Shown piece after piece: positions 43,205 through 58,951 of a stretch of 64,000 bases of DNA; positions within the stretch are counted from its first letter, which is position 1; each line of letters begins with the position of its first letter. The stretch comes from Chloroflexales bacterium ZM16-3. Its GTDB lineage: Bacteria; Chloroflexota; Chloroflexia; Chloroflexales; Chloroflexaceae. The position numbers and the translations under genes were made by a program. The stretch lies in the NCBI GenBank assembly GCA_004138175.2, contig RYFE02000025.1:1-64000 (forward strand), in the 5' to 3' direction. The notes beneath the pieces were generated by a model, which did not search any database, was not told the DNA's origin, and worked only from the letters and a program-made list of their open reading frames with translations.

Positions 43205-43634
43205 GTTTCTGGCTTCTGGATGCTGAAGGAGCCCTCACCCCCTGTCCCCCTCTCCCGCTGCGGCGGGAGAGGGGGGACGCGATTGGAATGCTGCCTGCGA
43301 CCTCCAACTCCTGCTGCAGCGAGCGAGGGGGGACGCAGTTGGAGTGTTAGTGGGCTATGCCAACTGCTCCCGCTGCGGTGGGAGAGGGGGGGACGCGATT
43401 GGAATGTCACCTGCGACCTTCAACTCCCGCTGCGGCGGGAGAGGGGGGACGCGGTTGGAATGTCACCTGCGACCTGACATGCGCGTGGCAATCAAACCCT
43501 CAGGAGTGCGTGTACCCCCTCGTCCGCCACAGTGGGAGAGCATAAGATTCTATCGGAACAACGAGCATTGTAAACGCGTCCCCCCTCGCCCGCCGCAGCG
43601 GGAGAGGGGGACAGGGGGTGAGGGCCACTGCGCT
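43205..43634. repeat. repeat-rich gap before the reverse transcriptase
   Basis: No gene and no template repeat seen. Composed of family-B arms (43231-43277, further halves near 43310-43335, 43365-43395 and 43425-43455) separated by GACGCRRTTGGAATGTCACC-like spacers, then a full copy at 43580-43626 whose GGGGGTGAGGG precedes ATG 43635. Confidence 0.8.
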
Positions 43635-44852
43635 ATGCCAACCACGTACCGCCATCTCTACGCGCAGATCTACAGCTTCGAGCACCTGCTCGCGGCCTAC
43701 CGGCGAGCGCGGCGCGGCAAGCGCTCGCGGCCGGATGTGGCGGCGTTCGAGTTTCGCTACGAGGACGAGCTGCTCCAGCTCCGCGATGAGCTGCGCGACG
43801 GGGTCTACCAGCCTGGCCCCTACCGCCGCTTCGCCGTCACCGAGAACGGCAAGCGCCGGGTGATCAGCGCGGCGCCCTTCCGCGACCGGGTGGTTCACCA
43901 CGCCCTCTGCGCAATTATTGAACCTCTGTTTGAGCGCCGCTTCATCTTCGACTCATACGCGAGCCGGCCGGGCAAGGGATCGCACGCCGCCCTGCGCCGC
44001 GCCCAGCACTTCGCCCGCGGCCACCGCTACGCCCTACAGCTGGACGTGCGCGAGTTCTTTCCCTCAATCGATCACTCCATCCTGCGCGGCATCCTGGCCC
44101 GCCACATCGCCGACCCGCGCATCCTCGATCTGATCGAGCGCATCCTGGCCGGCGGGGCCAGCGAGCTGCGCGACACCTACACCCCGGTCTACTTCCCCGG
44201 CGACGACCTCTTCGCGATCAGCCGGCCGCGCGGCCTGCCGATCGGCAACCAGACCAGCCAGTTCTGGGCGAACTGCCTGCTGCACCCGCTGGACATGTTC
44301 ATCAAGCAGGAGCTGGGCTGTCGCGGCTATGTGCGCTACTGCGACGATCTGCTGCTCTTCGCGAACGACACGCCAACCCTGCACCGCTGGCGCGCGCAGG
44401 TCATCGCCTTCGCCGCCACGCTGCGCCTAACCCTGCACGAAGGGCGCGCCCAGGTGGTGCCGGTCGAGACCGGGCTACCCTTCCTGGGGTGGCGGGTCTA
44501 CCCCTACCGGCTGCGCCTAAAGCGGCGCAACGTGCTGGCCTTCGCCCGCCGCTACCGGCGCATGCGCGCGCGCTACGCCGCCGGTCGCTGCACCCTGGCT
44601 GACATCGACACCCGTATCCAAGGCTGGCTCGGCCACGCCCGCCAGGGCCACACCCTGGCCCTGCGCCGCTCGCTGCTCAGGAAGCTGCTGCCCAAACAAC
44701 AAAAGAACAAGATCCCATCGGAGCGACGAGCATACCAATCGCGTCCCCCCTCGCCCGCCGCAGCGGGAGCGCGCACGATCCCATCGGAGCAACGAGCATA
44801 CCAATCGCGTCCCCCCTCGCCCGCCGCAGCGGGAGAGGGGGACAGGGGGTGA
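43635..44852 (+). CDS. DGR-type reverse transcriptase
   Basis: Encodes 405 aa from ATG 43635 (upstream open frame is repeat). RT motifs in order: LDVREFFPSIDHS (motif with first Asp, about 136), LPIGNQTSQFWAN (about 202-213) and YCDDLLLF (about 235), then FLGWRVYPYRLRL. GNQTSQ replaces the QGxxxSP of group II intron and retroviral RTs and is the hallmark of diversity-generating retroelements. A thumb/maturase-like helical tail follows (RYRRMRARYAAGRCTLADID). The last about 45 residues (IPSERRAYQSRPPSPAAAGA and a repeat of it) are encoded by two family-B copies and probably dispensable. It copies an RNA template with errors at A, to rewrite variable regions. Confidence 0.93.
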   Translation: MPTTYRHLYAQIYSFEHLLAAYRRARRGKRSRPDVAAFEFRYEDELLQLRDELRDGVYQPGPYRRFAVTENGKRRVISAAPFRDRVVHHALCAIIEPLFERRFIFDSYASRPGKGSHAALRRAQHFARGHRYALQLDVREFFPSIDHSILRGILARHIADPRILDLIERILAGGASELRDTYTPVYFPGDDLFAISRPRGLPIGNQTSQFWANCLLHPLDMFIKQELGCRGYVRYCDDLLLFANDTPTLHRWRAQVIAFAATLRLTLHEGRAQVVPVETGLPFLGWRVYPYRLRLKRRNVLAFARRYRRMRARYAAGRCTLADIDTRIQGWLGHARQGHTLALRRSLLRKLLPKQQKNKIPSERRAYQSRPPSPAAAGARTIPSEQRAYQSRPPSPAAAGEGDRG

Positions 44853-44861: not shown

Positions 44862-47780
44862 ATGTCCGACATCGCCGCCAAGATCGCTGAGCTAGAGGCC
44901 CAGATCGCCGCCCTGCGCGCGGGGGTCTCGCAGGGCATGGAGGCGCAGACGATCACGAACGCCTCGCAGACGACGGTGCTGGGCGACCAGCACATCCACG
45001 AGGCCCCGCCCGACGAGGCCCACGCCCGCGCCGAGCGCGCCCTGAATGGCTACCTGCGCGCCATCAGCCATAGCTGCAACACCGTGCAGCTGGCCCGGAT
45101 CGACCCGCGCGATGGCCGCCACCACGCCGAGATGCGCCTGGAGCAGGTTTACATTGATCTCTACTCTGAGCGAGAGCGTGAGCTATCACACGAAGAGCAT
45201 TTCGAGCGAGAGCGTCACAAACTAGGCGTTCAGCTACAGCTATTCCCTGTTGGGCGAATACACATGCTGGAGGCGTTGGATCGCCCCCACCCCGCGCGCG
45301 TGCTGCTCCTCGGTGGTCCAGGCAGCGGCAAGAGCACCTTCGTCAACCACCTGGCCCTCTGCCTAGCCGGGGCCTGCCTGGGCGAGCGCGACCCCGCCGA
45401 TGCGACCCACGGCGCCGCGCTGCTTGCTCGTCTGGCCCCGCACTGGAGCCACGGTGCCCTGCTTCCCGTGCGGGTGGTGCTGCGCGAGTTGGCCGCCTTC
45501 CCGGCGCTGCGCAATGCTTCTGTAGGTAGCCTCGCGCTGCTGCACGAATTTCTTGGCCATACTATCGCCCCCCACGCTGAGGCAATGGATCTTATCGTCG
45601 AAGCCCTCAGCGCTGGGCGCGCCCTGCTGCTTTTCGATGGACTCGACGAGGTCGAGGCCGGGCCGAATCTGGTCCACGTCAGCGAGTGCATCTCGGCGGC
45701 GGCCGGGGTCTACACCCGCAGCCCAGTGCTCGTCACCTGCCGCGTGCTCGACTACCAAGCCAACCCGCAGCGCCAGATCCCCGGCTTTCAGATCGAGTCC
45801 CTAGCCCCTCTCAACGACGACCAGATCAACGCCTTCGTCGACGCCTGGCACGCCGAGGTCGCCGCCACTGGTCGGACGATGCTCGGCGACGCCGCCGGGC
45901 TGCGTCAGGCTCTCGCCTCTAGCGCCGACCTGCGCGACATGGCCCGCCAGCCCCTGCTGCTGACCATGATGGCGATCGTCCACGCCGGCAAGGGCCGGCT
46001 GCCCGACGCCCGCGCTCTGCTCTACAGCGAGTGCATCGAGTTGCTGCTGCTGCGCTGGCGCAAGGAGCCTGACGAGCCCGACCTGCTGTCCCAGCTGGGC
46101 CTGCCCGACTTCAAGGAGCCCGACCTGATCAAGGTCATGGCCCGCATCGGCTTCGCGGCACATAACCGCTCGGCCCAGCAGCCCGAAGAGGCCGCCCAAC
46201 CGGCCGACCTCAGCCGCAACGCGGTGCGCGACGAGCTGGACGCCGCCTTCACCTACTACCAGCCCGACGAGGAGCGCCGGGCGGCCCTGGTGGTGCGTCT
46301 GCTCAACGCGATCGCCACCCGCAACGGCCTGCTGCTCAAGCAGAGCGGCGAGGCCGGCGAGGTTTATACCTTCCCGCACCGTAGCTTCCAGGAGTTCCTG
46401 GCCGGCTACTACATCAGCCTCCAGGGCGACTTCGACCTGCTGGTGTGGGATCGGGCCGGCCAGGTGGGCTGGCACGAGTCCCTACGCCTGATGGTGAGCT
46501 ACCAGGCCCTAACCCAGGCATCGCTCGGCCCGGCGCTCCAGGTGATCCACAACCTGCTGCGCGACGGCGCGCCGCTGGAGCAGGCCCTGGCCGGCGAGCT
46601 GCTGGCCATGGTGGGCTACGCCCGCGCCGCGAACTACCACAGCAAGTGGGCCGGCCCGAACGGCTGGTGGGCCAATGCCTGCGCCACCCTGCGCGCCGTC
46701 TCCATCGCGCCAAGCGATGTGGCCGACGCGCCGCTGCGCGCCCGCGCCGGCATGGCCCTCGGCCAGCTCTGCTACGGTTCGCTGGAGTCGCTGGCCCAGC
46801 TTGGCGTCACCCCAGTAGCGCACGACCCACGCCTGCTCGACCCAGCCACCGGCGACTCGCCTGACGGGGGCTACTGGTGCTCAATCGAGTCAGGGCTGTT
46901 CTGGTATGGCGATGATTTTGAAGCGGATGACGAAGAGGATAGCGGCGAGGATGTGGATGACGAAGAGGATAGCGGCGAGGATGTGGATGAGGAGGACAAA
47001 AATGAAAGGGACGAGGAGTCAGTGGATCATCATATGACCTTACGAGTAAAGGAACCTCTCCAGCAGAAAAGCCTTCAGTACGACTTCGAGATCGCCCGCC
47101 ACCCGGTAACTAACGCCGAGTACGCCCGCTTTATCGCCGTTGGCGGCTACCACGATCAGCGCTGGTGGACGAACGAGGGCTGGAGATACATTGAGCCGGG
47201 TGGCTATCGGGCTAAAGACGAGTCTGAGCGGATTATCCTACCGCGCTTCTGGGGCAACCCTGATCTCAATAGTCCGCTCCAGCCGGTTGTTGGCGTCTCG
47301 TGGTACGAGGCGGCGGCCTACTGCATCTGGCTGAATGAACGAGGACACACAGAGGGATGGCTGCCACAGGAAGAGGAGATTCGTCTGCCAACCTCCTTGG
47401 AATGGGAGCGAGCCGCCCGTGGTGATGATCAGCGCCACTACCCCTGGGGCGATGATATCCCAACAGTGGAGCGAGCAAACTATGCCGAGACCGCCCTTGG
47501 CACGACCTCGCCGATCGGCTGTTTTCCAACCGGCGCAGCGGTGTGCGGGGCCGAGGATATGGCCGGGAATGTCTATGAGTGGATGTGTTCGGTCAATGAG
47601 CAGCCTAAACGAGCGCAAAAAGACTTTACACCTGGCAATAGAGTATTGCTTTCAGGAAGTACCTTTTGGTGTGAATCAGAATATTTATCCTGCGGTCTTC
47701 GCTTCGACAGCAACCTCTTCCCGAGCATTTGGGACCGCGGTATGTCATTTCGGATACTCTGGTCCCCGCGCTCAACATAG
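44862..47780 (+). CDS. DGR-family target 3: NACHT NTPase with FGE-like domain, diverged tail
   Basis: Encodes 972 aa. Coiled-coil start as in target 1, an N-terminal helical domain with CNTVQLARIDPRDGRHH, NACHT Walker A LLGGPGSGKST (about 151) and Walker B LLFDGLDEVEAG (about 258), and FPHRSFQEFLAGYYI. FGE-like domain from about 670 (PVVGVSWYEAAAYC, DMAGNVYEWMCS). Between the first strand and the rest of that domain lies a unique acidic insertion (DEEDSGEDVD repeated). The tail ends FRILWSPRST and its variable stretch is two codons longer and does not fit the A-pattern of the others. It starts 10 bases after the RT stop. Confidence 0.88.
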   Translation: MSDIAAKIAELEAQIAALRAGVSQGMEAQTITNASQTTVLGDQHIHEAPPDEAHARAERALNGYLRAISHSCNTVQLARIDPRDGRHHAEMRLEQVYIDLYSERERELSHEEHFERERHKLGVQLQLFPVGRIHMLEALDRPHPARVLLLGGPGSGKSTFVNHLALCLAGACLGERDPADATHGAALLARLAPHWSHGALLPVRVVLRELAAFPALRNASVGSLALLHEFLGHTIAPHAEAMDLIVEALSAGRALLLFDGLDEVEAGPNLVHVSECISAAAGVYTRSPVLVTCRVLDYQANPQRQIPGFQIESLAPLNDDQINAFVDAWHAEVAATGRTMLGDAAGLRQALASSADLRDMARQPLLLTMMAIVHAGKGRLPDARALLYSECIELLLLRWRKEPDEPDLLSQLGLPDFKEPDLIKVMARIGFAAHNRSAQQPEEAAQPADLSRNAVRDELDAAFTYYQPDEERRAALVVRLLNAIATRNGLLLKQSGEAGEVYTFPHRSFQEFLAGYYISLQGDFDLLVWDRAGQVGWHESLRLMVSYQALTQASLGPALQVIHNLLRDGAPLEQALAGELLAMVGYARAANYHSKWAGPNGWWANACATLRAVSIAPSDVADAPLRARAGMALGQLCYGSLESLAQLGVTPVAHDPRLLDPATGDSPDGGYWCSIESGLFWYGDDFEADDEEDSGEDVDDEEDSGEDVDEEDKNERDEESVDHHMTLRVKEPLQQKSLQYDFEIARHPVTNAEYARFIAVGGYHDQRWWTNEGWRYIEPGGYRAKDESERIILPRFWGNPDLNSPLQPVVGVSWYEAAAYCIWLNERGHTEGWLPQEEEIRLPTSLEWERAARGDDQRHYPWGDDIPTVERANYAETALGTTSPIGCFPTGAAVCGAEDMAGNVYEWMCSVNEQPKRAQKDFTPGNRVLLSGSTFWCESEYLSCGLRFDSNLFPSIWDRGMSFRILWSPRST
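46920..47000. repeat. 30-bp tandem repeat coding an acidic insert in target 3
   Basis: GACGAAGAGGATAGCGGCGA and ten further bases are repeated twice in tandem with a partial third, encoding DEEDSGEDVD units. Exact duplication of 10 codons suggests a recent slip event. Confidence 0.85.
47703..47744 (+). other. diverged variable region of target 3
   Basis: Aligned between CGLR and SFRILWSPRST. Codons here include CTC, TTC, ATT and ATG, so third-base changes are present and length differs. It either derives from another template or has drifted after losing retrohoming. Confidence 0.6.
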
Positions 47781-48032: not shown

Positions 48033-50870
48033 ATGTCCGACATCGCCGCCAGGACCGCCCACATCGAGTCGATGCGCCCGCTGATCGGCGACGCGGCGGC
48101 CGACGCTGCCCTCGCCGCCCTGCGCGGCGAGCCGCCGACCGTACACCAGGAGATGCGCGCCGAGCGCATCGACCAGGCCCGCCAGATAAACGCCACCAAC
48201 TACTACGAGACGGGCGAGGACCCGGCCCTGGCCCGCGAGGGGGGCGCGCTGGCCGGCTTCCTCGGCCGCATGCGCCGCGAGTGCAACGCCCTGCCCCTCG
48301 GCCAGATCGACACCGCCGACGCCGCCCACCGGCCGATGCAGCTGGCCCAGGTCTATATCCGCCTGAACACCAGCGCCCAGACGCCGCTCAGCGACGCGGA
48401 GATCGCCGCCCTGCCCGCCGGGAGCCGCCCGCCCGCCCGCGATGGCGAGCGGCCGACCCGCCCGCTCAGCGCGGTTGAGGCCTTCGACCGCACCGAGGGC
48501 GGCCGCCTGATGCTGCTCGGCGCGCCGGGCAGCGGCAAGAGCACCTTCACCCTGCACCTGGCCCACTGCCTGGCCGCCGCCGCTTCCGCTGATGCCGCCG
48601 GCCAGGCCGAGGCGGCCGCCCGCGCGCTGGCCGAGATCCCGGGCTGGGGCCGCGGCCCCCTGCTGCCCGTGCGGGTCGTCCTGCGCGACCTGGCGGCCTT
48701 CCAGCCGCTGCTCAGCGCCGTGCAAGGCACAGCCAGCCACCTGCTCGACTTTATCGGCGAGACCCTCACATCCACTGGGCTGGCCGAGGCCCGCGCGCCG
48801 ATCGAGGACGCCCTGCGGGCCGGGCGGGCCGCGCTGTTGCTCGACGGTCTCGACGAGGTCGTCGGCCGCCCGGCCCTGGAGCGGGTCGGCGAGGCGATCG
48901 CCGACGCCACCGAGAGCTTCGGTGCCTGCCAGACCCTGGTCACCTGCCGCATCCTCGACTACGAGGCCGAGCCCCTGCGCCACCTGCCCGGCTTCGCCCC
49001 GCACGCCCTGGCCGATCTCGACGACGCGCAGATCGACCAGTTTATCGCCGGCTGGTACGCCGAGCTGGCCGCCAGCGGTCGGCGCGGCCCCGAGCACATG
49101 CGCGAGGACACCGCCGCGCTCCAGCAGGCGATCGCCGCCCGCCCCGAGCTGCGCGCCCTGGCCCGCCTGCCCCTGCTGCTCACGGTGATGGCCCTGGTTC
49201 ACGCCAGCCGGGGCGCCCTGCCCGACGCCCGCGCCCTACTCTACAAGGAGTGCATCGACCTGCTGCTGCTGCGCTGGCGTCAGCCGCGCGGCGCGCCCGA
49301 CCTGCTGACCCGCCTGGGCCTGCCCCAGTTCCGCAGCTCCGACCTGCTGGCGATCATGGCCCGCCTGGGCTTCCTGGCCCACGAGCAGGTCCACACCGAT
49401 GACGAGCCGCGCCCGGCCGACCTGAGCGAGGTCCAGGTGATGGCGCTGCTGGCCGAGGAGTTCGCCCGCTACGACAAGGAGCGGCGCTACGCCCTGGCCC
49501 AGACCGTGCTCGACGCCCTGGCCGGCACGAACGGCCTGCTGCTCCAGCGCGGGCCGGGGATCTACGCCTTCCCCCACCGCACCTTCCAGGAGTTCCTGGC
49601 CGGCTACCACCTGAAGGCCCAGAAGGACTACCAGAAGCTCTGCCGCGAGCGGGCCGCCCAGGCCCACTGGCACGAGTCGCTGAGCCTGATGGTCGGCTAC
49701 CAGGTGCTGGAGGACCGCGAGCTGGAGCGGCCGATCGGCCTGTGCCGCGAGCTGCTGCGGCGCGGGCCGGGTGAGCAGGCCCTGGCCGGCGAGCTGCTGG
49801 CCCTGATCGGCGCCGAGCGCGTCGCCCAGTACGACGCCGAGCTGCTCGGGCCGGGCGAGCTCTGGCAGCAGGCCCGCGACCTGCTGCTGGCCCTGGCGAC
49901 TGAGGGCCAGGCCCCCGAGCGCCCGGCGCCGCTGCGCTGCCGGGCCGGCCTGGCCCTGGGCCAGATCGCCTATGGCCCCGTCGCCGGCCTGATCGCCGGC
50001 CAGTCCCCGTCCCTGCCCGACCCGCGCTTGCTCAACCTGGCCAGCGGCGACTCGCCCGACGGGCGCTACTGGTGTGGGGTTGAGTCGGGGCCGTTCTGGC
50101 ACAGCCCCAGTCCTGATCCCGACAAACAGCAGACAGCATCGCTTGTTCAAATGACGCTGGACTACGGCTTCAAGATCGCCCGCTTCCCGGTGACCAACGC
50201 CGAGTACGCCGCCTTCATCGCTGCCGGCGGCTACCAGGAGCGGAGCTGGTGGACGGACGAGGGCTGGAGGTATATCGAGCCAGGTGGCCAGCGCTGGGGA
50301 AGCGATGAGCCAGAGCGCATCACGCTCCCGCGCTACTGGACTAACCTGGAGTTCAACAGCCCGCTCCAGCCGGTCGTCGGGGTAAGCTGGTACGAGGCGG
50401 CGGCCTACTGCATCTGGCTGACGGCAGAGGGCCATGCTGCGGGATGGCTGCCGCAGGATCAGGAGATCCGCCTGCCAACCTCGCTAGAGTGGGAGCAAGC
50501 CGCCCGGAGCGATGGCCGGCGGCGCTACCCCTGGGGCGATGACGAACCGGACGGCGAGCGAGCGAACTTCGCGCCTGCCAAGCTCGGGCGCACCTCACCA
50601 GCCGGCTGCTTCCCTCGTGATCTCGCGCCAACCGGCGCGCTCGATATGGCTGGGAATGTGTGTGAGTGGATGGCGACACCATACAAGAAGATAGGGCAAC
50701 ACCTGCCAGAAAAAGACTTTACAGCTATAGCCATGGTTGCCCTTTCATACGGCTCCTGGTATGCGTCAAGATTAGAACAGATATTCTGCGGCTCCCGCGG
50801 CAGGTTCGACCCGGACGACGGGGACAACAACTGGTCATTTCGGGTACTCTGGTCCCCGCGCTCAACATAG
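48033..50870 (+). CDS. DGR target 4: NACHT NTPase with FGE-like C-type lectin domain
   Basis: Encodes 945 aa. The N-terminal domain resembles that of target 2 (HQEMRAERIDQARQINATNY, CNALPLGQIDTADAAH). NACHT: Walker A LLGAPGSGKST (about 163), Walker B LLLDGLDEVVG (about 270), VTCRILDYEA sensor, then FPHRTFQEFLAGYHLKA. FGE-like domain from about 679 (SGPFWHSPSP, PVVGVSWYEAAAYC, DMAGNVCEWMAT) ending FRVLWSPRST. Variable codons at 50799-50831 carry Gly, Phe and Asp choices explained by A substitutions. Downstream flank keeps the GGGGC hairpin seen after target 1. Confidence 0.9.
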   Translation: MSDIAARTAHIESMRPLIGDAAADAALAALRGEPPTVHQEMRAERIDQARQINATNYYETGEDPALAREGGALAGFLGRMRRECNALPLGQIDTADAAHRPMQLAQVYIRLNTSAQTPLSDAEIAALPAGSRPPARDGERPTRPLSAVEAFDRTEGGRLMLLGAPGSGKSTFTLHLAHCLAAAASADAAGQAEAAARALAEIPGWGRGPLLPVRVVLRDLAAFQPLLSAVQGTASHLLDFIGETLTSTGLAEARAPIEDALRAGRAALLLDGLDEVVGRPALERVGEAIADATESFGACQTLVTCRILDYEAEPLRHLPGFAPHALADLDDAQIDQFIAGWYAELAASGRRGPEHMREDTAALQQAIAARPELRALARLPLLLTVMALVHASRGALPDARALLYKECIDLLLLRWRQPRGAPDLLTRLGLPQFRSSDLLAIMARLGFLAHEQVHTDDEPRPADLSEVQVMALLAEEFARYDKERRYALAQTVLDALAGTNGLLLQRGPGIYAFPHRTFQEFLAGYHLKAQKDYQKLCRERAAQAHWHESLSLMVGYQVLEDRELERPIGLCRELLRRGPGEQALAGELLALIGAERVAQYDAELLGPGELWQQARDLLLALATEGQAPERPAPLRCRAGLALGQIAYGPVAGLIAGQSPSLPDPRLLNLASGDSPDGRYWCGVESGPFWHSPSPDPDKQQTASLVQMTLDYGFKIARFPVTNAEYAAFIAAGGYQERSWWTDEGWRYIEPGGQRWGSDEPERITLPRYWTNLEFNSPLQPVVGVSWYEAAAYCIWLTAEGHAAGWLPQDQEIRLPTSLEWEQAARSDGRRRYPWGDDEPDGERANFAPAKLGRTSPAGCFPRDLAPTGALDMAGNVCEWMATPYKKIGQHLPEKDFTAIAMVALSYGSWYASRLEQIFCGSRGRFDPDDGDNNWSFRVLWSPRST
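50799..50831 (+). other. DGR variable region of target 4
   Basis: Eleven codons aligned without gaps to targets 1 and 2. Third bases all match. Followed by the same 39 identical bases up to the stop. Confidence 0.88.
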
Positions 50871-51255
50871 GTTTCTGGCTTCTGGATGCTGAATTCTGGT
50901 TTCTGTCGTGCTGAATCCTCTGCCCGGAAGGGGGCCTGGGGCGCAGCCCCAGCCGCGCATATTTTTTTGAGGTGGATGTAAAGAGTTTATGGGATGACCG
51001 GCCCTCACCCCCTGTCCCCCTCTCCCACTTCGTGGGAAGAGGGGGGACGCGGTTAGAATGCCACCTGCGACCTGACATGCGCGTGGCAATCAAACCCTCA
51101 GGAGTGCGTGTGCCCCCTCGCCCGCCGCAGCGAGAGAGCATAAGATTCTATCGGAACAACGAGCATTGTAAACGCGTCCCCCCTCGCCCGCCGCAGCGGG
51201 AGAGGGGGACAGGGGGTGAGGGCCATATGATGCCTGCACCCTGATGGGGGATACC
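50871..51255. repeat. gap after target 4: post-IMH hairpin and family-B repeats
   Basis: Starts with the same block as the gap after target 1 (CTGGATGCTGAATTCTGG, then CTGGGGC/GCCCCAG hairpin at 50936-50952). Family-B copies at 51001-51048 and 51178-51224 follow. No template repeat or Avd-like gene found here. Confidence 0.8.
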
Positions 51256-53211
51256 ATGACCGATCTCTTACGTCGCCTGAAGACCTACCTCGACGCGCCG
51301 ACGACCATCCAGCTCGCCCAGGCCGTGCCGCTTGGCGTGCTGGCCGGGGCCAGCGCCGCCACCATCGCCGCGATCATCGGCATGCCCGCCTTCGCCACCA
51401 GCTGCCTGGGGATCATCTTTGGCGGGCTGGCGGTCAACTTCACCTCCTCGCTGATTGACAAGATCGTCCACGCCGGCAGCGAGCGCGAGCAGGTCAAGCT
51501 GATCGAGCAGGGCCTTAAGGACGGCGACAAGGATGTCCAGACCCTGGTAGCAGGGGCGCTGACCCACGCCGGGCCAGAGGTTTCTGCCGCCCTGCCCCCC
51601 GCCGACCGCGACGAGCTGATCATTGCCTTCGAGGCGGCCATGCGCAGGGCCGGCGGCCCGCTGGTCGGCATCGCCGGGCGCTACGCCGCCGCCCTGCGCG
51701 ACCCGTCCGCCGACTGGGGTGTGCTCCAGCGCGACGTGCGCGAGGATGCGGCGACGCTCACCCAGGAGATCCGCGGCGTCGATCTGGTTGAGGACGCAAT
51801 GCAGGAGGCCCGCGACGTTGATGGCCGGGTCAAGCAGCTGATCGAGGCAAAGACGGTTCGCGGAGTCTCGCAGGTGGCGAGCGGAGTGCGGGGCACAAAG
51901 CCTACACCTCCCACACCCACTCGCCCCTGCCCCGACTGCGGCATGGCCGTGCCAGTCGGCGCGGCGGCCTGCCCGAGCTGCGGGATGCGTCTGGGCGGTG
52001 CCCAGGGCGCCGCTGCCCCACCCGCCACCACGCCCATCCCGCTCACCCTCACTCTCGCGCCGACCACCTACGGCGCCCAGGTCAGCTGGGAGAGCGACCT
52101 GATTGGCCGGCGGGAGAGCCGCTTTGTCAGCCCCTTCGCCGGGGCCGACCTCGACCTGGTCATCCGCGCCCTGGACGTATTACAGTATCCCTCGTCCGGC
52201 TTCACCGCCGCCGAGGCGGATCGCCTCACTGCCCTGGGCATCCCCCACCACGACGGGCTGCTCCGTAACGAGGCCCACCGGGCGGTCGGCCAGATCCTCT
52301 ACCGCGCCCTGGCGGCAGACTTGCCGGGGGCCGCATCCCTCACCAGCGTGCGCAACTTCGCCACCAACCAGGGCCGCCCGCTCAGCCTGCACATCCACCT
52401 GCCCCCGGACGCCGTGGCCCTGGCCGCGCTGCCCTGGGAGCTGCTCTGGGCGCCCGACGAGCCGACCCCGCTGCTGCTCAGCCGGGGGCACCCGGCCAGC
52501 CTGACCCGCCACCTCGACCTGGCCCAGGCCCTGCCGGCGCCGCGCCCGGGCGGCCGGCCGCTGCGCGTGCTGACCATCGCCCCCCAGGCCCTGCTCGACC
52601 CGGCCATGCACTCCGCCGAGCGCCAGGCCCGCGCCGCCGCCTGGGCGCCGCTCGTCGCCAGCGGCGCGGTCGAGCTGCTCCCCGACATCAGCCCGGCCAC
52701 CCGCGAGGCGATCTCGGACACGCTGCGCCGCGCGGGGCCGATCGACGTGCTGCACTACATCGGCCACGGGCGCTTCGAGAAGGGCGAGGGCCAGCTTGCC
52801 CTCGACCGGGCCGACGGCAAGCTGGCGATTACCCCGATCAGCCAGCTGGCCCCGGCCCTGGCGGCGGCCCAGGTGCGCCTGGCCGTGCTCACCGCCTGCC
52901 AGGGCGCGATGGTCGGCGCGGCCGAGACGGGCGCCAGCGTCCTCGGCGGCGTGGCCCCGGCCCTGATCGCCCAGGGCGTGCCGCTGGTGGTGGCCATGCA
53001 GCTCACCGTGCGCCAGACGGCGGCCAACCGGGCCACCCGCGTGATCTACGAGGAGCTGGCAGCCGGGCGCAGCGTGCAGGCCGCCGTCGCCGCCGCCCGC
53101 CTGGCCCTCTACACCGAGGAGCAGGACCGGGCCTCCTGGTACGTGCCGGCGCTCTATGTGCGCTCGGCCGAGGCGGGCGAGGCGTATCTGGTGGGGGGGA
53201 CAAAAAAGTGA
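51256..53211 (+). CDS. CHAT protease with membrane helices and zinc ribbon
   Basis: Encodes 651 aa from ATG 51256 (GGGGG five bases before; ATG 51244 is also in frame). An N-terminal pair of hydrophobic segments (about 25-62, LGVLAGASAATIAAIIGMPA and LGIIFGGLAVNF) is followed by a helical region, a zinc ribbon (CPDCG...CPSCG, about 225-240), then a CHAT caspase-like peptidase: catalytic His in HYIGHGR (about 502) and Cys in LTACQGAMVG (about 547). CHAT proteases execute abortive responses in gasdermin, TPR-CHAT and type III-E systems. It follows four NACHT sensors with no other effector nearby, so it is the probable effector of the cluster. Confidence 0.9.
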   Translation: MTDLLRRLKTYLDAPTTIQLAQAVPLGVLAGASAATIAAIIGMPAFATSCLGIIFGGLAVNFTSSLIDKIVHAGSEREQVKLIEQGLKDGDKDVQTLVAGALTHAGPEVSAALPPADRDELIIAFEAAMRRAGGPLVGIAGRYAAALRDPSADWGVLQRDVREDAATLTQEIRGVDLVEDAMQEARDVDGRVKQLIEAKTVRGVSQVASGVRGTKPTPPTPTRPCPDCGMAVPVGAAACPSCGMRLGGAQGAAAPPATTPIPLTLTLAPTTYGAQVSWESDLIGRRESRFVSPFAGADLDLVIRALDVLQYPSSGFTAAEADRLTALGIPHHDGLLRNEAHRAVGQILYRALAADLPGAASLTSVRNFATNQGRPLSLHIHLPPDAVALAALPWELLWAPDEPTPLLLSRGHPASLTRHLDLAQALPAPRPGGRPLRVLTIAPQALLDPAMHSAERQARAAAWAPLVASGAVELLPDISPATREAISDTLRRAGPIDVLHYIGHGRFEKGEGQLALDRADGKLAITPISQLAPALAAAQVRLAVLTACQGAMVGAAETGASVLGGVAPALIAQGVPLVVAMQLTVRQTAANRATRVIYEELAAGRSVQAAVAAARLALYTEEQDRASWYVPALYVRSAEAGEAYLVGGTKK

Positions 53212-53263: not shown

Positions 53264-53485
53264 CTATCTGAGGGCGAGGAACTGCTCCACCGTTAACCCC
53301 GCTTGGCGAATGATCGCTCGCAGTGTGCCACGATCAAGCTCGGTATGATCGGGAACGCTGATCGTCGTGGCAGGATCGGCGCGCTGGAGGATCATATGGC
53401 TGCCACGTTGACGGATGAGCACAAAGCCGACGTTAGCGAGCGTAGCAACACACTGGCGACCGGAAATAATAGGAAGGGGCGGCAT
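53264..53485 (-). CDS. hicA: HicA mRNA interferase toxin
   Basis: Encodes 73 aa. Shows the dsRBD-like HicA fold: SGRQCVATLANVGFVLIRQR, GSHMILQR with the catalytic His, VPDHTELDRGTLRAIIRQAG. HicA cleaves mRNA when free of HicB. The ATG follows the HicB stop by one base, so translation is coupled. Antitoxin-first order is one of the two known arrangements. Confidence 0.92.
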   Translation of the reverse strand: MPPLPIISGRQCVATLANVGFVLIRQRGSHMILQRADPATTISVPDHTELDRGTLRAIIRQAGLTVEQFLALR

Positions 53486-53486
53486 G

Positions 53487-53714
53487 CTATACCACCACCA
53501 GCTGTCGATCCAGCGTGTCCTCAGGCACAGGTTTCCCTTGCTCCTCCAGCACCTCGATCATCAGCATAATGGCCTCACGAATATTGGCGATGGCCTCGGC
53601 ACGAGTGTGCCCTTGGCTGATACAGCCGGGCAGACTTGGCACCTCAGCCACAAACCAGCCGTCCTCGCCGGGGGTGATCACCACCTGGCGAAGCGTGTAT
53701 GCAGGCGTGCTCAT
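53487..53714 (-). CDS. hicB: HicB antitoxin
   Basis: Encodes 75 aa from ATG 53714 (GAAAGGA before it). The HicB RNase-H-like fold is plain: VVITPGEDGWFVAEVPSLPG, CISQGHTRAEAIANIREAI. It lacks an additional C-terminal DNA-binding domain (ends DTLDRQLVVV), so repression may depend on the HicAB complex. Promoter TGC-TACAAT about 40 bases upstream. Probably stabilises the island. Confidence 0.9.
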   Translation of the reverse strand: MSTPAYTLRQVVITPGEDGWFVAEVPSLPGCISQGHTRAEAIANIREAIMLMIEVLEEQGKPVPEDTLDRQLVVV

Positions 53715-53751
53715 TGCTGATCCTTTCAGGAGTAAAGAGCGTATGCCTGGC

Positions 53752-53757
53752 ATTGTA
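53752..53757 (-). promoter_or_regulatory. extended -10 TACAAT of hicBA
   Basis: Minus-strand TACAAT preceded by TGC, about 38 bases before hicB. Same form as the box at 2978-2983. Confidence 0.5.
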
Positions 53758-53942
53758 GCACGCGCTGTGCCCCCACTCAGCGCCACGTATCATGCTCGCT
53801 TCACTGAAAATAATCTGTGACGCTAGGCATCGCAACACCGTCATTATGGCGAACAAAAAGGCGAATAAAAAGGCTCGCAGCATGCGAGCCTATGATATAC
53901 TATCATATTGGGAACAGTCGTTCGCTTATCTGGAGTTGCCTC

Positions 53943-54623
53943 ATGCTCGCTCTACGCCCCAATCCCGCACCGGTCTGGTTCCAAAATACCGCTTTACTCG
54001 CCCTCAAATTAGCATGCACTGCCGTCATTATTATGCTTGGTGTGGAACTGATCGCCACAAGCATGGTGGCTATCCTTATCGGCGTCGATATGACTATCAC
54101 TTACAGCTCTACCACGCCATTCGGGATCGGCATGGCTATTTTGATCCTATTTGTGGGCGGTACGGCCAAACTCTGGGAACATAGCGTACATCCCCTGAAG
54201 GAGGTTTGGGCGGCGCAATGGCAACCTGTTTCTACAACAGCCTCACGGCAACGATCAGCAGCGAACTATATAGTCGCCCTTGCCCAACGATTTCTGAAAG
54301 GCTATCTCGCTGTTTGGCTCCTGGGAGGCGTGACTATGATAGTCGCACTGGCCCCCCTACTGCTCACAGCTGTGGGAGGATTTGGCACCTTCATTCCTGC
54401 CGCAATCATCCATTTGGGTGTCGTCGCATGGTTGGGGTTGGATGCGATCCGTCACTGGTATGAGCAGAGGTTGGCCCGCGAGCGGGAGCAGATTAGAGCC
54501 GAGTGGGAAGCCGAGCGCGAGCATGAACGATTAGAAGAGCGTAAGGCTATGGCTGCTGCAGTGCGCGTCGGGCTGCATCTTGGGGGGAAACTCCCGCAGC
54601 CACCAGATTCAGAAACTCATTAA
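53943..54623 (+). CDS. polytopic membrane protein with C-terminal coiled coil
   Basis: Encodes 226 aa from ATG 53943; a longer open frame starts at 53817 but its first 42 codons overlap hicBA control sequence and look non-coding. About four hydrophobic segments (ALLALKLACTAVIIMLGVEL, GIGMAILILFVGGTA, GYLAVWLLGGVTMIVALAPL, FIPAAIIHLGVVAWLGL) and a charged tail (EQRLAREREQIRAEWEAERE). The plan mirrors the gene at 1200-2039 (four helices plus coiled coil) without its HTH. Its 3' end overlaps the convergent XRE gene by 77 bases. Locally lower GC than the cluster to the left. Confidence 0.6.
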   Translation: MLALRPNPAPVWFQNTALLALKLACTAVIIMLGVELIATSMVAILIGVDMTITYSSTTPFGIGMAILILFVGGTAKLWEHSVHPLKEVWAAQWQPVSTTASRQRSAANYIVALAQRFLKGYLAVWLLGGVTMIVALAPLLLTAVGGFGTFIPAAIIHLGVVAWLGLDAIRHWYEQRLAREREQIRAEWEAEREHERLEERKAMAAAVRVGLHLGGKLPQPPDSETH

Positions 54624-54960
54624 ACGCTTCTGAATCTGCGGGTCTAGCGCCAGTGACTTGCACCTCTCTAAGAACTTCCTCTAGTGGATCTGGCTCTGAA
54701 GTTGCCAACCGCTTTTGAGCGAGAGTGACACCCTCTTCTTCAGGCACATTCTCAGCAAGCAGCTGAGCAAGATCTTCATAAGCACCCTGTAACACACCTA
54801 ATAGGGCGGGAACATAGCCGATCTTCGGCTGGTTCTCGCCCTTTTCCCAGTTTGCCACCTGACGATCAGAGACCCCAACGGCTGCCCCTACTTGCTTTTG
54901 GGAGAGCTTGCGCCCCTCTCGTAAGGTGAACAGATAACGTGCTACAGCTCCCATACTCAT
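54547..54960 (-). CDS. XRE-family transcriptional regulator (CI-like)
   Basis: Encodes 137 aa. N-terminal helix-turn-helix LREGRKLSQKQVGAAVGVSD, then RQVANWEKGENQPKI (about 14-45). The C-terminal part (NVPEEEGVTLAQKRLATSEP onward) is helical with no peptidase signature, so it is not a LexA-type self-cleaving repressor. It is divergent from a small second HTH gene, with operators between and beyond them, the layout of a phage or integrative-element lysogeny switch. Confidence 0.88.
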   Translation of the reverse strand: MSMGAVARYLFTLREGRKLSQKQVGAAVGVSDRQVANWEKGENQPKIGYVPALLGVLQGAYEDLAQLLAENVPEEEGVTLAQKRLATSEPDPLEEVLREVQVTGARPADSEAFNEFLNLVAAGVSPQDAARRALQQP

Positions 54961-54995
54961 GCCCCAAACTATACACGATACCGAAGAAAATTTCT

Positions 54996-55049
54996 AGCGA
55001 AGAAATATACCATTTACTAATTGATAAGCGAACTTTAATTCGCTAAGAT
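54996..55049 (+). promoter_or_regulatory. promoter P1 with operator O1 and an upstream half-site
   Basis: TTGATA (55021-55026), 17-base spacer, TAAGAT (55044-55049). O1, AGCGAA-N6-TTCGCT (55027-55044), fills the spacer exactly. An AGCGAA half-site is at 54996-55001. Drives the small HTH gene at 55,085. Confidence 0.75.
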
Positions 55050-55084
55050 AAAGAACAAAACCGAGTGAATAGTCCAGGAGTTAT

Positions 55085-55297
55085 ATGTCACTAGAAAATT
55101 TCTTCGCCGCCATCGAAAGTTTAGGCACTACTCAAGTAGAACGCGCCCAAGCACTCGGGATAACAGATCGCCAGCTTTTAACCTGGCGAAAAGGTAAGTT
55201 GCCGCGCTTAATTAAGCACTTGGTTCAGAACCCGGATCTCTTGCATGCTCTGGCTGAAGATAGTCGGGTATCGATAAATTCTTCGCCAAGCCCTTGA
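55085..55297 (+). CDS. small HTH protein (Cro-like)
   Basis: Encodes 70 aa; CAGGAG before ATG 55085. A single helix-turn-helix (TTQVERAQALGITDRQLLTW, then RKGKLPRLIKHLV). The position, opposite an XRE repressor with shared operators, fits a Cro-type partner or an activator of the downstream operon. Which of the two proteins binds AGCGAA-N6-TTCGCT cannot be told from sequence. Its 3' end overlaps promoter P2. Confidence 0.75.
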   Translation: MSLENFFAAIESLGTTQVERAQALGITDRQLLTWRKGKLPRLIKHLVQNPDLLHALAEDSRVSINSSPSP

Positions 55298-55343
55298 CTT
55301 GCGAATAATTCTTCGCTATAATACGAGCGAAGATTAGTTCGCT
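55294..55343 (+). promoter_or_regulatory. promoter P2 with operators O2 and O3
   Basis: TTGACT (55294-55299), 17-base spacer, TATAAT (55317-55322). O2 (TGCGAA-N6-TTCGCT, 55300-55317) fills the spacer as in P1; O3 (AGCGAA-N6-TTCGCT, 55326-55343) covers the start of transcription. Drives the operon starting at 55,529. Confidence 0.85.
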
Positions 55344-55528
55344 TATTTGTCAAGCGGGCACTTCCTACCAAGCTTATCACCGCCAACTCACACCCAGTGA
55401 CGCCGAACCGGCGTCAGCATTGCCGTGCCCTCCGGCCTGATCATATCACAAAATGGGCCACGGCCGCCGGCCGCCCGAACGGCGGGAGCGGAGAGATCAA
55501 TCAGCTATCTGTAAATGAAGGAGGATGA
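55344..55528 (+). other. 185-base leader of the replication/excision operon
   Basis: No gene. Contains a short GACGCCG/CGGCGTC hairpin (about 55397-55415) and a GGCCGCCGGCCG stretch near 55462. The leader ends with AAGGAGGATGA at the start of the next gene. Could hold attenuation, not shown. Confidence 0.45.
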
Positions 55529-56539
55529 ATGAGTAAGTGGAAAGGGATCAGTCATGGCCGCATGACACGAGCGATGGAACAATCGTTATCTCCAGCCGAG
55601 TTCAAAGTCCTCGCTGTAGTCCGTCGAATCATCCCCGACGGCCAGCGGCGCATGATCAGCCAATTTGAGATTGCCAGGCGCGCGCGCGTTAGCGAATCGA
55701 CGGTCAGCGCCACTATGCGTAAGGTCGACGGAATATTCACCCGCCGCTTTCTCATCGGCATAGGGCGCGGCAGAGGCTACGAGATCGAGATGATCCCGCC
55801 AGCTGAGCAACTCCGAATGCCTCTCAGCTCGCCTAGAAAAGGATCGCTCACAGATCCTTCATCAGAAACTAGCGTTGAGGGCATAGAGACGGCGCAAACC
55901 GCCTCAAAAGAAGGATCGCTCACAGATCCCGCCATCTTCTATGATCATAATCATGAGCAGCAGCAGCAGGCGGCTGCGCAAACCGGCGCGGAGCGCAATG
56001 CCGGCCAGGCTGATCAGCTTGCCCCTGAGACAATCGCCGCCCTTGAAAAGGCCGGAGCCCACCCCAAGCTGATCGCTCGGATCGCCGCGAACAATCCGAA
56101 TTGCAGCCCCGCCCAGGTCGCCGAGGCGCTCCTGGCAGCCGAGCAGAAATCCAACTGCCATACGCTGCCGGGCCTGGCCCTGGAGTGCCTGGCCCGCGCC
56201 CAGCGAGTTGTCGTGCCGCGCGCCCGCGCCGAGTCCCGCAGCGATATGCTCGCGCCAATCGATTGGGCGGCGCGAAATCGAGCTGCCGAGGGCGACATGC
56301 CCGACGATGCCGAAGATGATCTTCCGCCCCCACGCGACCCGCATGCCGAGGCGATTTTGCTCCTCGGCGAGTGTCCGCCCAGCCATGCCGAGCAAATTTT
56401 TCTCGCACAGCGGATTTTCGCTGGCGACAGCCCCGAGGCCGCTGCCGATGCGCTACGGACTGAGCGATCCCGCAGGCCCCGGCCCGAGGATCGCGTTGTC
56501 CCGACAATGCGACGCCGACAGGGGCGGAGCAATGATTGA
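55529..56539 (+). CDS. winged-helix DNA-binding protein, replication-initiator-like
   Basis: Encodes 336 aa with an ideal AAGGAGG. Residues about 20-95 form a winged helix (SPAEFKVLAVVRRIIPDGQR, ISQFEIARRARVSESTVSAT). A duplicated linker element KGSLTDP occurs twice (about 105 and 130). The C-terminal half is helical (LAPETIAALEKAGAHPKLIA, HTLPGLALECLARAQRVV) and acidic at the end. Resembles phage/ICE replication initiator or DnaD-like proteins in plan; not a confident family match. Overlaps the next gene by 8 bases and is under the P2 operators. Confidence 0.6.
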   Translation: MSKWKGISHGRMTRAMEQSLSPAEFKVLAVVRRIIPDGQRRMISQFEIARRARVSESTVSATMRKVDGIFTRRFLIGIGRGRGYEIEMIPPAEQLRMPLSSPRKGSLTDPSSETSVEGIETAQTASKEGSLTDPAIFYDHNHEQQQQAAAQTGAERNAGQADQLAPETIAALEKAGAHPKLIARIAANNPNCSPAQVAEALLAAEQKSNCHTLPGLALECLARAQRVVVPRARAESRSDMLAPIDWAARNRAAEGDMPDDAEDDLPPPRDPHAEAILLLGECPPSHAEQIFLAQRIFAGDSPEAAADALRTERSRRPRPEDRVVPTMRRRQGRSND

Positions 56540-57413
56540 ACCACTATCGCTCGCCGAGTCCACCGCCCGCGAGCGCTGCGAGCGCCAGATCGCCGATGGC
56601 CTCAGCACGTTTATCGCTGTCGGCGAGGCGCTGCTGACCATCCGCGAGCAGCGCCTCTACCGCTCGACCCACCGCTCGTTTGCCGACTATCTGGCCGAGC
56701 GCTGGCCGCAGCTCGGCTCGCGCCGCCAGGCCGACCGCCTGATCAATGCAGCCATTGTCGACGCCAATGTACGACCCACGGGCCTCACTATTCCCAGCGA
56801 GCGCGTGGCTCGCGAGCTGGCTGGCCTGGAGCCGCAGGCCCAGCGGGCCGCGCTGCGCCAGGCGGTGAGCGCCGCCGGCGACCGTGCCCCAACCGCCGCC
56901 CAGGTGCGCGCGGCGGCCCGCCCGGAGCTGCCCGCGCCACCCACGCCTACCCACGATCCGGCGAAACCGGAGCCAGCGCCGCTGGCTGTCTTCCCGCCCG
57001 GCCATATCGATGCCGGCACCTGCGTGATCGAGTGTCGCTTGGCCGAGGGCCGCCCAGAGCCTGGCGATAGGCTCTGGGCCGAGGAGCTACAGCGCAAGCT
57101 GGAGCAGGCGCGATCAGGGATGCAGCCCGCCGTCTACGCGCACTGGCGGGCCAGGCTGGACGTGGCTGCGCAGCTGCTCAACGATCCCGCCCGCGCCCAG
57201 CGCTACGCCCTGGCCGCGCGGCGGCTCACTGCGGCGGTCGACAGCGTCGCCCGATCTCCACCCCAGCTGCGCGTACTCTGCCTGGTCTGTGGCGTCGAGC
57301 TGCTCGCCGACGCCGACAGCCGGGATGTCCGCAACTGGCTGTGGAAGCAGCTCTTGATCCGTCTGTTCGCCTGCGACCTTGATCCGCTGTGTCAGGCGCT
57401 GGGAGAGGAATAG
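56532..57413 (+). CDS. hypothetical protein of integrative-element operon
   Basis: Encodes 293 aa from ATG 56532, overlapping the previous stop. N-terminal helical region (ARERCERQIADGLSTFIAVG, then ALLTIREQRLYRSTHRSFAD and YLAERWPQLGSRRQADRLIN) resembles the helical N-terminus found in many phage proteins that precede ParB-like or methyltransferase domains. A Pro-rich linker (about 130-155) joins a C-terminal region with CLVCGVELLADADSRDVRNW. No catalytic motif recognised. Likely plasmid/ICE maintenance. Confidence 0.6.
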   Translation: MIEPLSLAESTARERCERQIADGLSTFIAVGEALLTIREQRLYRSTHRSFADYLAERWPQLGSRRQADRLINAAIVDANVRPTGLTIPSERVARELAGLEPQAQRAALRQAVSAAGDRAPTAAQVRAAARPELPAPPTPTHDPAKPEPAPLAVFPPGHIDAGTCVIECRLAEGRPEPGDRLWAEELQRKLEQARSGMQPAVYAHWRARLDVAAQLLNDPARAQRYALAARRLTAAVDSVARSPPQLRVLCLVCGVELLADADSRDVRNWLWKQLLIRLFACDLDPLCQALGEE

Positions 57414-57415
57414 CT

Positions 57416-57697
57416 ATGATCGAGCCGACCTACACCCTCCAGGAGATTGCCGAGCTGGCCAAGATCAGCCTGGCCTCGGTCAAGCGTGCCGTGCGTGATG
57501 ATCGTTTGCGCGCCATCAAGCTCGGTCGGCTCTGGCGCGTTCGCGCTGCGGATGCGCAGCGCTGGCTTAGCGAAGGAGATCATCCATGCCCGCCAAAAAA
57601 CGTCGCTCCCCGGGCCAGGGCTCGTACTCCAAAACCGCCAGCGGATGGCGCTACCGCGTACCCGTGGGAGAAACGCCGTCAGGCAAGGCGATCCTGA
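57416..57697 (+). CDS. excisionase-type HTH protein
   Basis: Encodes 93 aa from ATG 57416. The MerR-like HTH_17 fold is clear (YTLQEIAELAKISLASVKRA, VRDDRLRAIKLGRLWRVRAA), as in recombination directionality factors. The last 37 residues overlap the integrase start in another frame. Context (directly before an integrase at a tRNA gene) strongly suggests an Xis function. Confidence 0.85.
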   Translation: MIEPTYTLQEIAELAKISLASVKRAVRDDRLRAIKLGRLWRVRAADAQRWLSEGDHPCPPKNVAPRARARTPKPPADGATAYPWEKRRQARRS

Positions 57698-58827
57698 AGG
57701 ATTTCTATGGCCCGACGAAGGCCGAGGTTACGGCCAAGGCCGACGCCTACCGCGCCGCCCACCCCGAGGGGCCGCCAAGCGTTGACGCGACCCAGCTGCT
57801 GCTTGAGTTCTTGGCGATCTGGCTCAATCTGGTGGTCAAGAAGCACAACGCGGAGAGCACCTACGAGTCCTATCTGGCGACCATCGACCTGTACATTGTC
57901 GACAGCATCGGCCAGCGCCCGCTCTGCGACCTGACCCCGCTGATCATCCAGTCCTGGGTAAACGCGATTGCTGCGACGGGCAAGGGCCGCACGGCCGAGC
58001 TGGCGCTGGCCATCCTGCATACCGCGCTGAATGACGCGGTGGCCTGGGAAATCCTGAAGCGCAACCCGGCGGCGCATGTCAGCGCGCCCACGTTCGAGCG
58101 GAAGAAAGCCCAGGCCATGACGCTGGCGCAGGCCCAGGCGTTTATGGCCGCCGCCGGCGGTCGGCAGGACCTGCGCAAGCCGATCATGCGTAAGAACGGC
58201 AAGAAGATGACCCCGATCGCGATCAACCCGCGCCTAGAGCCGCTTTACCTGCTCTATGCGATAATCGGCTTTCGGCGCGGGGAGCTGCTGGCGTTGCGCT
58301 GGTCGGACATCAACCTGGAGACTGGGGAGATCACGATCACCAAGTCGCTCGATAAGCACCGGCGCGAGAAAGGGCCAAAGACGGAGAGCAGCATCCGCAC
58401 CGTCTATGCCGATGAGACGGCGCGGGAAGCCCTCAAGGCGCATCGGGAGCGTATGCAGGCTGAGCACCACCAGGAGGGCTGGAAACACGATGGGCTAGTG
58501 TTTTGTACTGAGGAGGGCACCTCGATCAGCCCACGCAACCTGCTGCGCCATTTCAAGACGGTTCTGGCGGCGGCTGGGCTGCCAAGCACGTTCACCTTGC
58601 ATGGGCTGCGCCACTCGGCAGGCTCGCTGATGCTGGCCGAGGGCGCGAAGCTGACCGACGTGAGCAAGACGCTGGGCCACTCCTCGGTGGCGATCACGGG
58701 GAAGGTCTACGCGCACGGCTACGAGGAGGGCAAGCGCGCGGCGGTGGCCGGGGTGGGCCGGAAGTTCCGGCGCACTACGGACTCTGGGGAGGGCGATGCG
58801 CCGCGAAAGGGTGGTGATGGGGTATGA
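57586..58827 (+). CDS. int: tyrosine integrase of the island
   Basis: Encodes 413 aa. Arm-type binding domain (about 1-65, GQGSYSKTASGWRYRVPVGE), SAM-like core-binding domain (about 70-155), and catalytic domain with Arg in GFRRGELLALRW (about 228), HxxR in HGLRHSAGSLM (about 340), His in LGHSSVAI (about 366) and nucleophile Tyr in GKVYAHGYEE (about 375). This is the phage/ICE-type integrase that targets tRNA genes. It overlaps the excisionase gene and lies 50 bases from tRNA-Lys, the probable attachment site. Confidence 0.93.
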   Translation: MPAKKRRSPGQGSYSKTASGWRYRVPVGETPSGKAILKDFYGPTKAEVTAKADAYRAAHPEGPPSVDATQLLLEFLAIWLNLVVKKHNAESTYESYLATIDLYIVDSIGQRPLCDLTPLIIQSWVNAIAATGKGRTAELALAILHTALNDAVAWEILKRNPAAHVSAPTFERKKAQAMTLAQAQAFMAAAGGRQDLRKPIMRKNGKKMTPIAINPRLEPLYLLYAIIGFRRGELLALRWSDINLETGEITITKSLDKHRREKGPKTESSIRTVYADETAREALKAHRERMQAEHHQEGWKHDGLVFCTEEGTSISPRNLLRHFKTVLAAAGLPSTFTLHGLRHSAGSLMLAEGAKLTDVSKTLGHSSVAITGKVYAHGYEEGKRAAVAGVGRKFRRTTDSGEGDAPRKGGDGV

Positions 58828-58876: not shown

Positions 58877-58951
58877 TGGTGAGCCGGGTGGGGATCGAAC
58901 CCACGACCCTCTGATTAAAAGTCAGGTGCTCTACCACTGAGCTACCGGCCC
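58877..58951 (-). tRNA. tRNA-Lys(TTT)
   Basis: Reading the minus strand: acceptor GGGCCGG pairs with CCGGCTC, D-loop GCTCAGTGGTAGAGC, anticodon loop CTTTTAA (anticodon TTT), T-loop GGGTTCGATCCCC, and an encoded CCA. All arms fold, with one weak pair (C-A) at the base of the anticodon stem. The 3' end faces the integrase, so this is the likely attB of the island. Its 3' half was not found repeated elsewhere in the window, so the other island end lies outside. Confidence 0.95.

Follow-up and report, generated by a model that had tools for sequence, protein, structure and literature searches.

The control region at positions 54500-55600 of the window, by which we mean the whole 64,000-nucleotide stretch of Chloroflexales bacterium ZM16-3 DNA analyzed here (contig RYFE02000025.1), is probably an immunity switch of the lambda/N15 cI-cro type, belonging to a small integrative element that targets a tRNA-Lys gene, with a promoter designated P2 controlling a replication, excisionase and integrase operon. 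The sites, the promoter positions, the gene order, the conservation of the arrangement in a family of loci, and the co-variation of recognition helices with operators can all be read from the sequences themselves. A preliminary description of the region had interpreted three operators of the form AGCGAA-N6-TTCGCT as the control circuit of a mobile island, and comparison with related loci partly supports that interpretation.

Two short genes diverge from the region. The leftward gene (54547..54960, minus strand) encodes an XRE repressor of 137 residues, with a match to HTH_3 (PF01381, E=2.7e-9), a predicted recognition helix DRQVANWE, and an N-terminal domain that, as modeled, resembles the P22 c2 repressor. 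The rightward gene (55085..55297, plus strand) encodes a small Cro-like protein of 70 residues. A promoter scan of 54500-55600 finds exactly three sigma-70-like promoters, compared to 0.8 in shuffled sequence. P1, the promoter of the small gene (55021-55049, plus strand), consists of TTGATA (55021-55026), a 17-bp spacer, and TAAGAT (55044-55049). P2 (55294-55322, plus strand), whose -35 hexamer includes the small gene's TGA stop codon, consists of TTGACT (55294-55299), likewise a 17-bp spacer, and TATAAT (55317-55322). The promoter of the XRE gene (54996-54968, minus strand) consists of TAGAAA (54996-54991), again a 17-bp spacer, and TATAGT (54973-54968).

The operators are fitted closely to these elements. 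O1 (55027-55044, AGCGAACTTTAATTCGCT) is a perfect copy of the palindrome and occupies the P1 spacer, while O2 (55300-55317, TGCGAATAATTCTTCGCT) differs from it only in the outermost base and occupies the P2 spacer. The register of the two is identical, since in both the palindrome begins with the base that follows the -35 hexamer, and its last base is the first T of the -10 hexamer. O3 (55326-55343), a second perfect copy, lies across the expected start of P2 transcription. Everything the preliminary description had said of the three sites, their 17-bp spacers, their common register, and the position of O3 is thus found in the sequence. O2 and O3 are spaced by 26 bp, about 2.5 helical turns, which is not ideal for cooperation side by side. 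The XRE promoter has half-sites only; one of these, AGCGAAGAA (54996-55004, plus strand), adjoins its -35 hexamer and shows three mismatches to the full palindrome.

The -10 hexamer of the XRE promoter ends 7 nt upstream of the XRE start codon. A -10-like hexamer ends 5-9 nt upstream of the XRE start codon in 15 of the 20 loci with an XRE partner, the window included, a count made with no control set and with start codons partly picked among candidates. Because of this spacing, the XRE mRNA probably begins at the start codon itself and is leaderless.

A free palindrome search, allowing any 6-bp half-site and gap over the 420-bp regulatory region, picked AGCGAA-N6-TTCGCT as the best motif, with a score of 11.97 against 4.55 +/- 1.17 for 150 dinucleotide shuffles, one of which scored higher (12.20). 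For the divergent region alone the result is borderline, as one of 60 shuffles reached its score. The genome of the organism (6.27 Mb) has three perfect sites, two of them at the O1/O3 locus and the third within an ORF; with up to one mismatch there are 14 places genome-wide, about the number that simple arithmetic gives for a uniform chance expectation, so that the signal resides in the cluster rather than in the motif alone. Within the 64-kb window, the search for further sites suggested by the preliminary description returned no other copy with one mismatch or fewer. At up to three mismatches the window has 27 matches where 28 are expected, and matches this weak are therefore uninformative. 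The one higher-scoring shuffle, the borderline divergent region, and the chance level of weak matches are what might be seen if the palindromes had simply arisen at random in AT-rich promoter DNA. We regard such an origin as extremely improbable, because the placement recurs independently in relatives that have other operator sequences, and because the operators co-vary with the helices that would read them, as described below.

Members of the small protein family were sought with a profile built from 12 small proteins (A1). In the class, 21 loci were found, in 14 of 158 genomes. A divergent XRE gene of the same family lies beside the small gene in 20 of these 21 loci, and in eight of nine when only loci outside the seed are counted. 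The named relatives are uncultured Oscillochloris metagenome-assembled genomes plus one Chloroflexi metagenome-assembled genome. In a sample of 400 genomes from the phylum, the profile matched in ten genomes, only two of them outside the class and both weakly (L082 and L083, E values 5e-4 and 7e-4); these two were not used as family members. A search of 50,697 phage records found no relative of the small protein, and a search of viral contigs found no relative of the window integrase or of the A3 small proteins. One IMG/VR match to a small protein (L089) lies within a large unrelated protein and was rejected as coincidental. Among the matches listed for a plasmid collection, only the tRNA gene was covered.

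Relatives also have a strong promoter ahead of the small gene, at the corresponding place; in 17 of 21 loci the spacer of the best-scoring candidate is 17 bp long. In L072-L074 that candidate has a 15-bp spacer, and the analysis took the 17-bp alternative. Every relative with an assigned operator carries a palindrome of its own, giving 11 distinct half-sites in 17 loci. Half-sites were assigned by eye: TTGCA (L066, L068, L076), CCGCA (L075, L064, L065), TCCAA (L062, L063), TTCCG (L080, L081), and, in one locus each, GGAAA (L070), AGACA (L069), CTTCA (L067), TACCA (L079), TTTCA (L072), TTCCA (L077), and CGAAG (the window). A free search for 5-4-5 motifs returns the half-site assigned by eye as the best in 13 of the 17 loci, the four where it is not best being L069, L062, L076, and L081. 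No clear operator was found in L071.

When 16 representative loci are aligned on the -10 hexamer of the small gene, palindromicity peaks at dyad offsets -7, the center of the spacer, and +15, in the start region. These are the two highest of 115 offsets in all three arm settings, with p values of 2e-5 to 6e-4 each, uncorrected. In the set of all 20 loci, offsets -30 and -27 are also among the top ranks. Relative to 43 unrelated promoter-like sequences, the palindrome excess has z scores of 1.8-3.8 at -7, 3.3-4.1 at +15, and 2.6-4.5 at -30, ranges that depend on the choice of arms and on a 2-bp correction for L077, whose best spacer is 15 bp; by this comparison the excess at -7 is moderate. Operators of the window have offset -8, one base off the family peak, and the family as a whole shows no excess at -8.

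The P2 type of device, in which a -35 hexamer, a spacer operator, a -10 hexamer, and a second operator over the start follow one another, is found again in L070 and L067. Its operator dyads lie at about -8 and +18 in the window, -8 and +16 in L070, and -7 and +14 in L067. In both the window and L070, the P2 -10 hexamer lies 232 bp past the start of the small gene and the stop codon falls within the -35 hexamer. Motif scores for the P2 region are 11.97 in the window, 12.34 in L070, and 8.46 in L067, against shuffle maxima of 12.20, 12.04, and 6.79, respectively. In most relatives no P2 was seen, and the downstream gene often comes immediately after the small one.

Distances between half-sites track distances between recognition helices, which were taken from alignments guided by models. 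Across 17 loci, a small number in which kinship was partly controlled, the Mantel correlation of half-site with XRE recognition helix is rho 0.67, and 0.60 (p 0.0003) as a partial correlation given the rest of the XRE protein. With half-sites assigned by machine, the values are 0.56 and 0.44 (p 0.0007 and 0.002). Half-site and small-protein helix correlate with rho 0.55, partial 0.46-0.47. The set leaves out L071, with its lack of a clear operator, L078, where the XRE partner was not found, and L073 and L074, which are near-copies of L072. Sequence comparison thus supports the view that operators and DNA-reading helices changed together while the promoter layout stayed constant. The preliminary description's claim that an XRE repressor and a Cro-like protein share the circuit gains support from this comparison, in that both helices co-vary with the operators in 17 loci and the placement is repeated.

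The small protein received no family assignment in Pfam, NCBIfam, or PHROG. It is modeled as a five-helix HTH protein with pLDDT 92, and its structural matches are weak (best Z 3.5, Foldseek E 0.9), with cII, CI-MOR, Cro, and the ImmR DNA-binding domain (7t8i) among them. Judged against the small proteins of the window, L032, L033, and L035, seven short forms (L034, L037, L040, L042, L045, L048, L039) lack 6-9 residues around the first HTH helix. The co-variation of its helix with the operator is the argument that the small protein reads DNA, an argument that could be indirect, since the XRE and small-protein helices co-vary as well (rho 0.49). It is possible, and we put it forward tentatively, that the small proteins are minimal Cro-type regulators of a new family, a good number of which have lost the first HTH helix and yet recognize operator DNA with one helix only, possibly paired with XRE in heterodimers. 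On this view the family would have split into a series of distinct immunity types whose repressor helix, Cro helix, and operators evolved in concert within a fixed promoter layout.

In the main rival to a pair of DNA-reading regulators, XRE is the sole DNA-binding repressor of the operators, and the small protein attaches to XRE as an antirepressor or co-regulator, on the model of MOR and CI in phage TP901-1. Such a role would suit the shortness of the small protein, the absence of those residues around the first HTH helix in many relatives, and the presence of the TP901-1 CI-MOR complex among its structural matches. What makes the role rather unlikely, in our judgment, is that the helix of the small protein co-varies with the half-site even after control for background (partial p 0.002-0.003), with the reservation that this signal could be indirect.

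The operon behind P2 begins with a leader of about 200 nt (55329..55528, plus strand) that matches nothing in Rfam and is not unusually structured (fold z -0.71). All of its genes are on the plus strand. The first (55529..56539) encodes a putative replication initiator of 336 residues with an N-terminal winged helix; its matches to the replication initiation protein family PHROG_2149 (E=0.0089) and to MarR_2 (E=0.008, below cut-off) are both weak. The second (56544..57413) belongs to no family, TilS at E 0.057 being its only match in the Pfam scan. An ORF from an ATG at 57413 (57413..57697) encodes an excisionase-type HTH protein, matching TIGR01764 (36.2 bits against a cut-off of 28.8), PF12728, and the excisionase family PHROG_1840. 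The tyrosine integrase (57586..58827) matches PF00589 (E=8.8e-23) and PHROG_1 (E=4e-64). The earlier assignment of a replication, excisionase, and integrase operon to P2 therefore stands for its excisionase and integrase parts, while its replication part is weak.

The operon ends about 50 bp before a gene for tRNA-Lys(TTT) (58877..58951, minus strand), the likely attachment site. The adjoining of integrase and excisionase genes to a tRNA gene is as in integrative elements that target tRNA genes, and DNA similarity to several relatives ends at or near the tRNA-Lys 3' end. The same tRNA-Lys occurs with an integrase, near clpP, in L095, and L140 has a 69% identical integrase at that tRNA-Lys. G004 has a cluster of NACHT genes close to the same tRNA-Lys; in a 13-kb stretch there, tblastn detected nothing similar to the window integrase, and the tRNA flank offered no alignable left border. 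Because G004 has the NACHT cluster with no integrase match, the comparison suggests that the insert lies between the CHAT-domain gene ending at 53211 and the tRNA-Lys gene. No exact 13-mer of the tRNA 3' end is shared with the rest of the window as an attL candidate; the core may be shorter or degenerate, or lie outside the window. The left border of the proposed mobile island was not found. Among the Pfam-scanned ORFs of 53264-58827, some of them without a family, there was no FtsK-like transfer gene, as in an actinomycete-type ICE, and no packaging or capsid-interference gene, as in a phage satellite (PICI).

Leftward of these genes the window has several other features. A HicA/HicB toxin-antitoxin pair (53264-53786) lies to the left of the neighbor of the XRE gene and may or may not belong to the element. 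The CHAT-domain gene (51244-53211) has a zinc ribbon and adjoins NACHT genes. Four NACHT-FGE-sulfatase C-terminal repeats (39020-39174, 43050-43204, 47620-47780, and 50710-50870) differ at clustered positions and share a nearly identical 37-bp end, and a reverse-transcriptase ORF (RVT_1, 43344-44852) is found beside such repeats. The combination resembles a diversity-generating retroelement whose targets would be the NACHT proteins; a template repeat was looked for and not found.

Recombinase genes were found near 11 of the 21 modules, on DNA fetched around each locus. They are of tyrosine type in the window, L092, L093, L095, and L097, and of serine type in L094, L101, L102, L103, L104, and L105. 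Calls were made by Pfam on genes, or near-copies of genes, from L092, L095, L101, L102, L093, L094, L097, and L105, and the recombinases of L103 and L104 were assigned by near-identity to L102. L090 has only an integrase fragment, and several other loci are on contigs shorter than 5 kb. Matches to tRNA genes (tRNA-Lys in L102, L103, and L104; tRNA-Gly in L101) fall inside the 3' part of serine recombinase ORFs, as if the gene carried the attachment site, or as a spurious tRNA call. Other neighbors of the modules are a KilA-N protein, a P22_AR_N protein, and primase/helicase proteins (D5_N, VapE-like).

This company bears on a further reading, in which the divergent pair would be a toxin-antitoxin-like module whose antitoxin regulates itself through the palindromes, with no switch of mobility involved. 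Some weak family matches are indeed to antitoxins (Xre-like-HTH, Y4mF/HipB, HigA). The two genes are divergent, however, rather than co-transcribed, the predicted P2 with its two operators leads into xis and int, and the relatives have recombinases, primases or helicases, and KilA-N or P22_AR_N proteins for neighbors, so that a self-contained module of this kind seems very unlikely.

For the working of the proposed immunity switch we infer binding, repression, a leaderless transcript, an order of affinities, and bistability. XRE dimers would bind palindromes of 14-18 bp. Bound at O1, XRE would obstruct the P1 spacer and silence the small Cro-like gene; bound at O2 and O3, it would obstruct both the spacer and the start of P2, silencing the operon of the replication gene, the unassigned gene, xis, and int, and the element would stay integrated. 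XRE itself would be made at a low level, from a transcript starting at its own start codon. Should the level of XRE fall, P1 and P2 would fire together, and the small HTH protein, reading the same operators, would lower XRE, temper P1 and P2, or do both. Its action would commit the element to excision and probably to replication.

Parts of this arrangement are familiar from other systems. In phage lambda, OR1 lies in the spacer of PR and overlaps its -10 hexamer, the cI mRNA from PRM is leaderless, and two HTH proteins share the operators; lambda OR comprises three adjoining sites, and a C-terminal domain of CI serves cleavage and cooperativity. The window resembles lambda OR in having an operator in the promoter spacer that overlaps the -10 hexamer and two HTH regulators whose operators are predicted to be shared. 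It differs in that the space between the genes holds a single full site and one half-site, and a cleavage or cooperativity domain was not seen in its repressor. ImmR of ICEBs1 and similar repressors of small integrative elements are XRE proteins whose genes lie next to a divergent operon that leads to excision, and the XRE gene of the window likewise adjoins such an operon. Unlike ICEBs1, the window has no ImmA-type protease and no conjugation genes among the ORFs scanned.

The telomere phages N15, phiKO2, and PY54 have a primary immunity region with cB or cI, cro, and OR and OL operators; in N15, the operators recognized by the repressor CB lie both in the cB-cro interval and at the promoter of repA, and the cI and cro mRNAs of PY54 are both reported to be leaderless (PMC4488713). 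The window is like these phages in its divergent repressor and cro-like genes and its palindromic operators of 16-18 bp, like N15 in having operators in two places, between the gene pair (O1) and at the promoter of the putative replication gene (O2 and O3, where N15 has OL at repA), and like PY54 in the leaderless XRE mRNA predicted here. In contrast to the phages, the second promoter of the window comes immediately after the small gene and points the same way, with the stop codon within its -35 hexamer; the operon ends in xis and int; the repressor has 137 residues; integration is probably at tRNA genes; and the small protein fits no described family. The literature searched showed, by title or opening abstract, no Chloroflexia element of this kind.

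To our knowledge, few regulatory circuits of mobile elements in the Chloroflexota have been described. The loci presented here form a natural series, in which 11 distinct half-sites from 17 loci are matched to two co-varying recognition helices within a fixed promoter frame. Such a series would open the co-evolution of repressor and Cro specificity to experiments on small proteins and short stretches of DNA, and it bears on whether elements of this type exclude or ignore one another. The layout of gene pair and operators may, in addition, serve as a search rule for unannotated integrative elements in the class.
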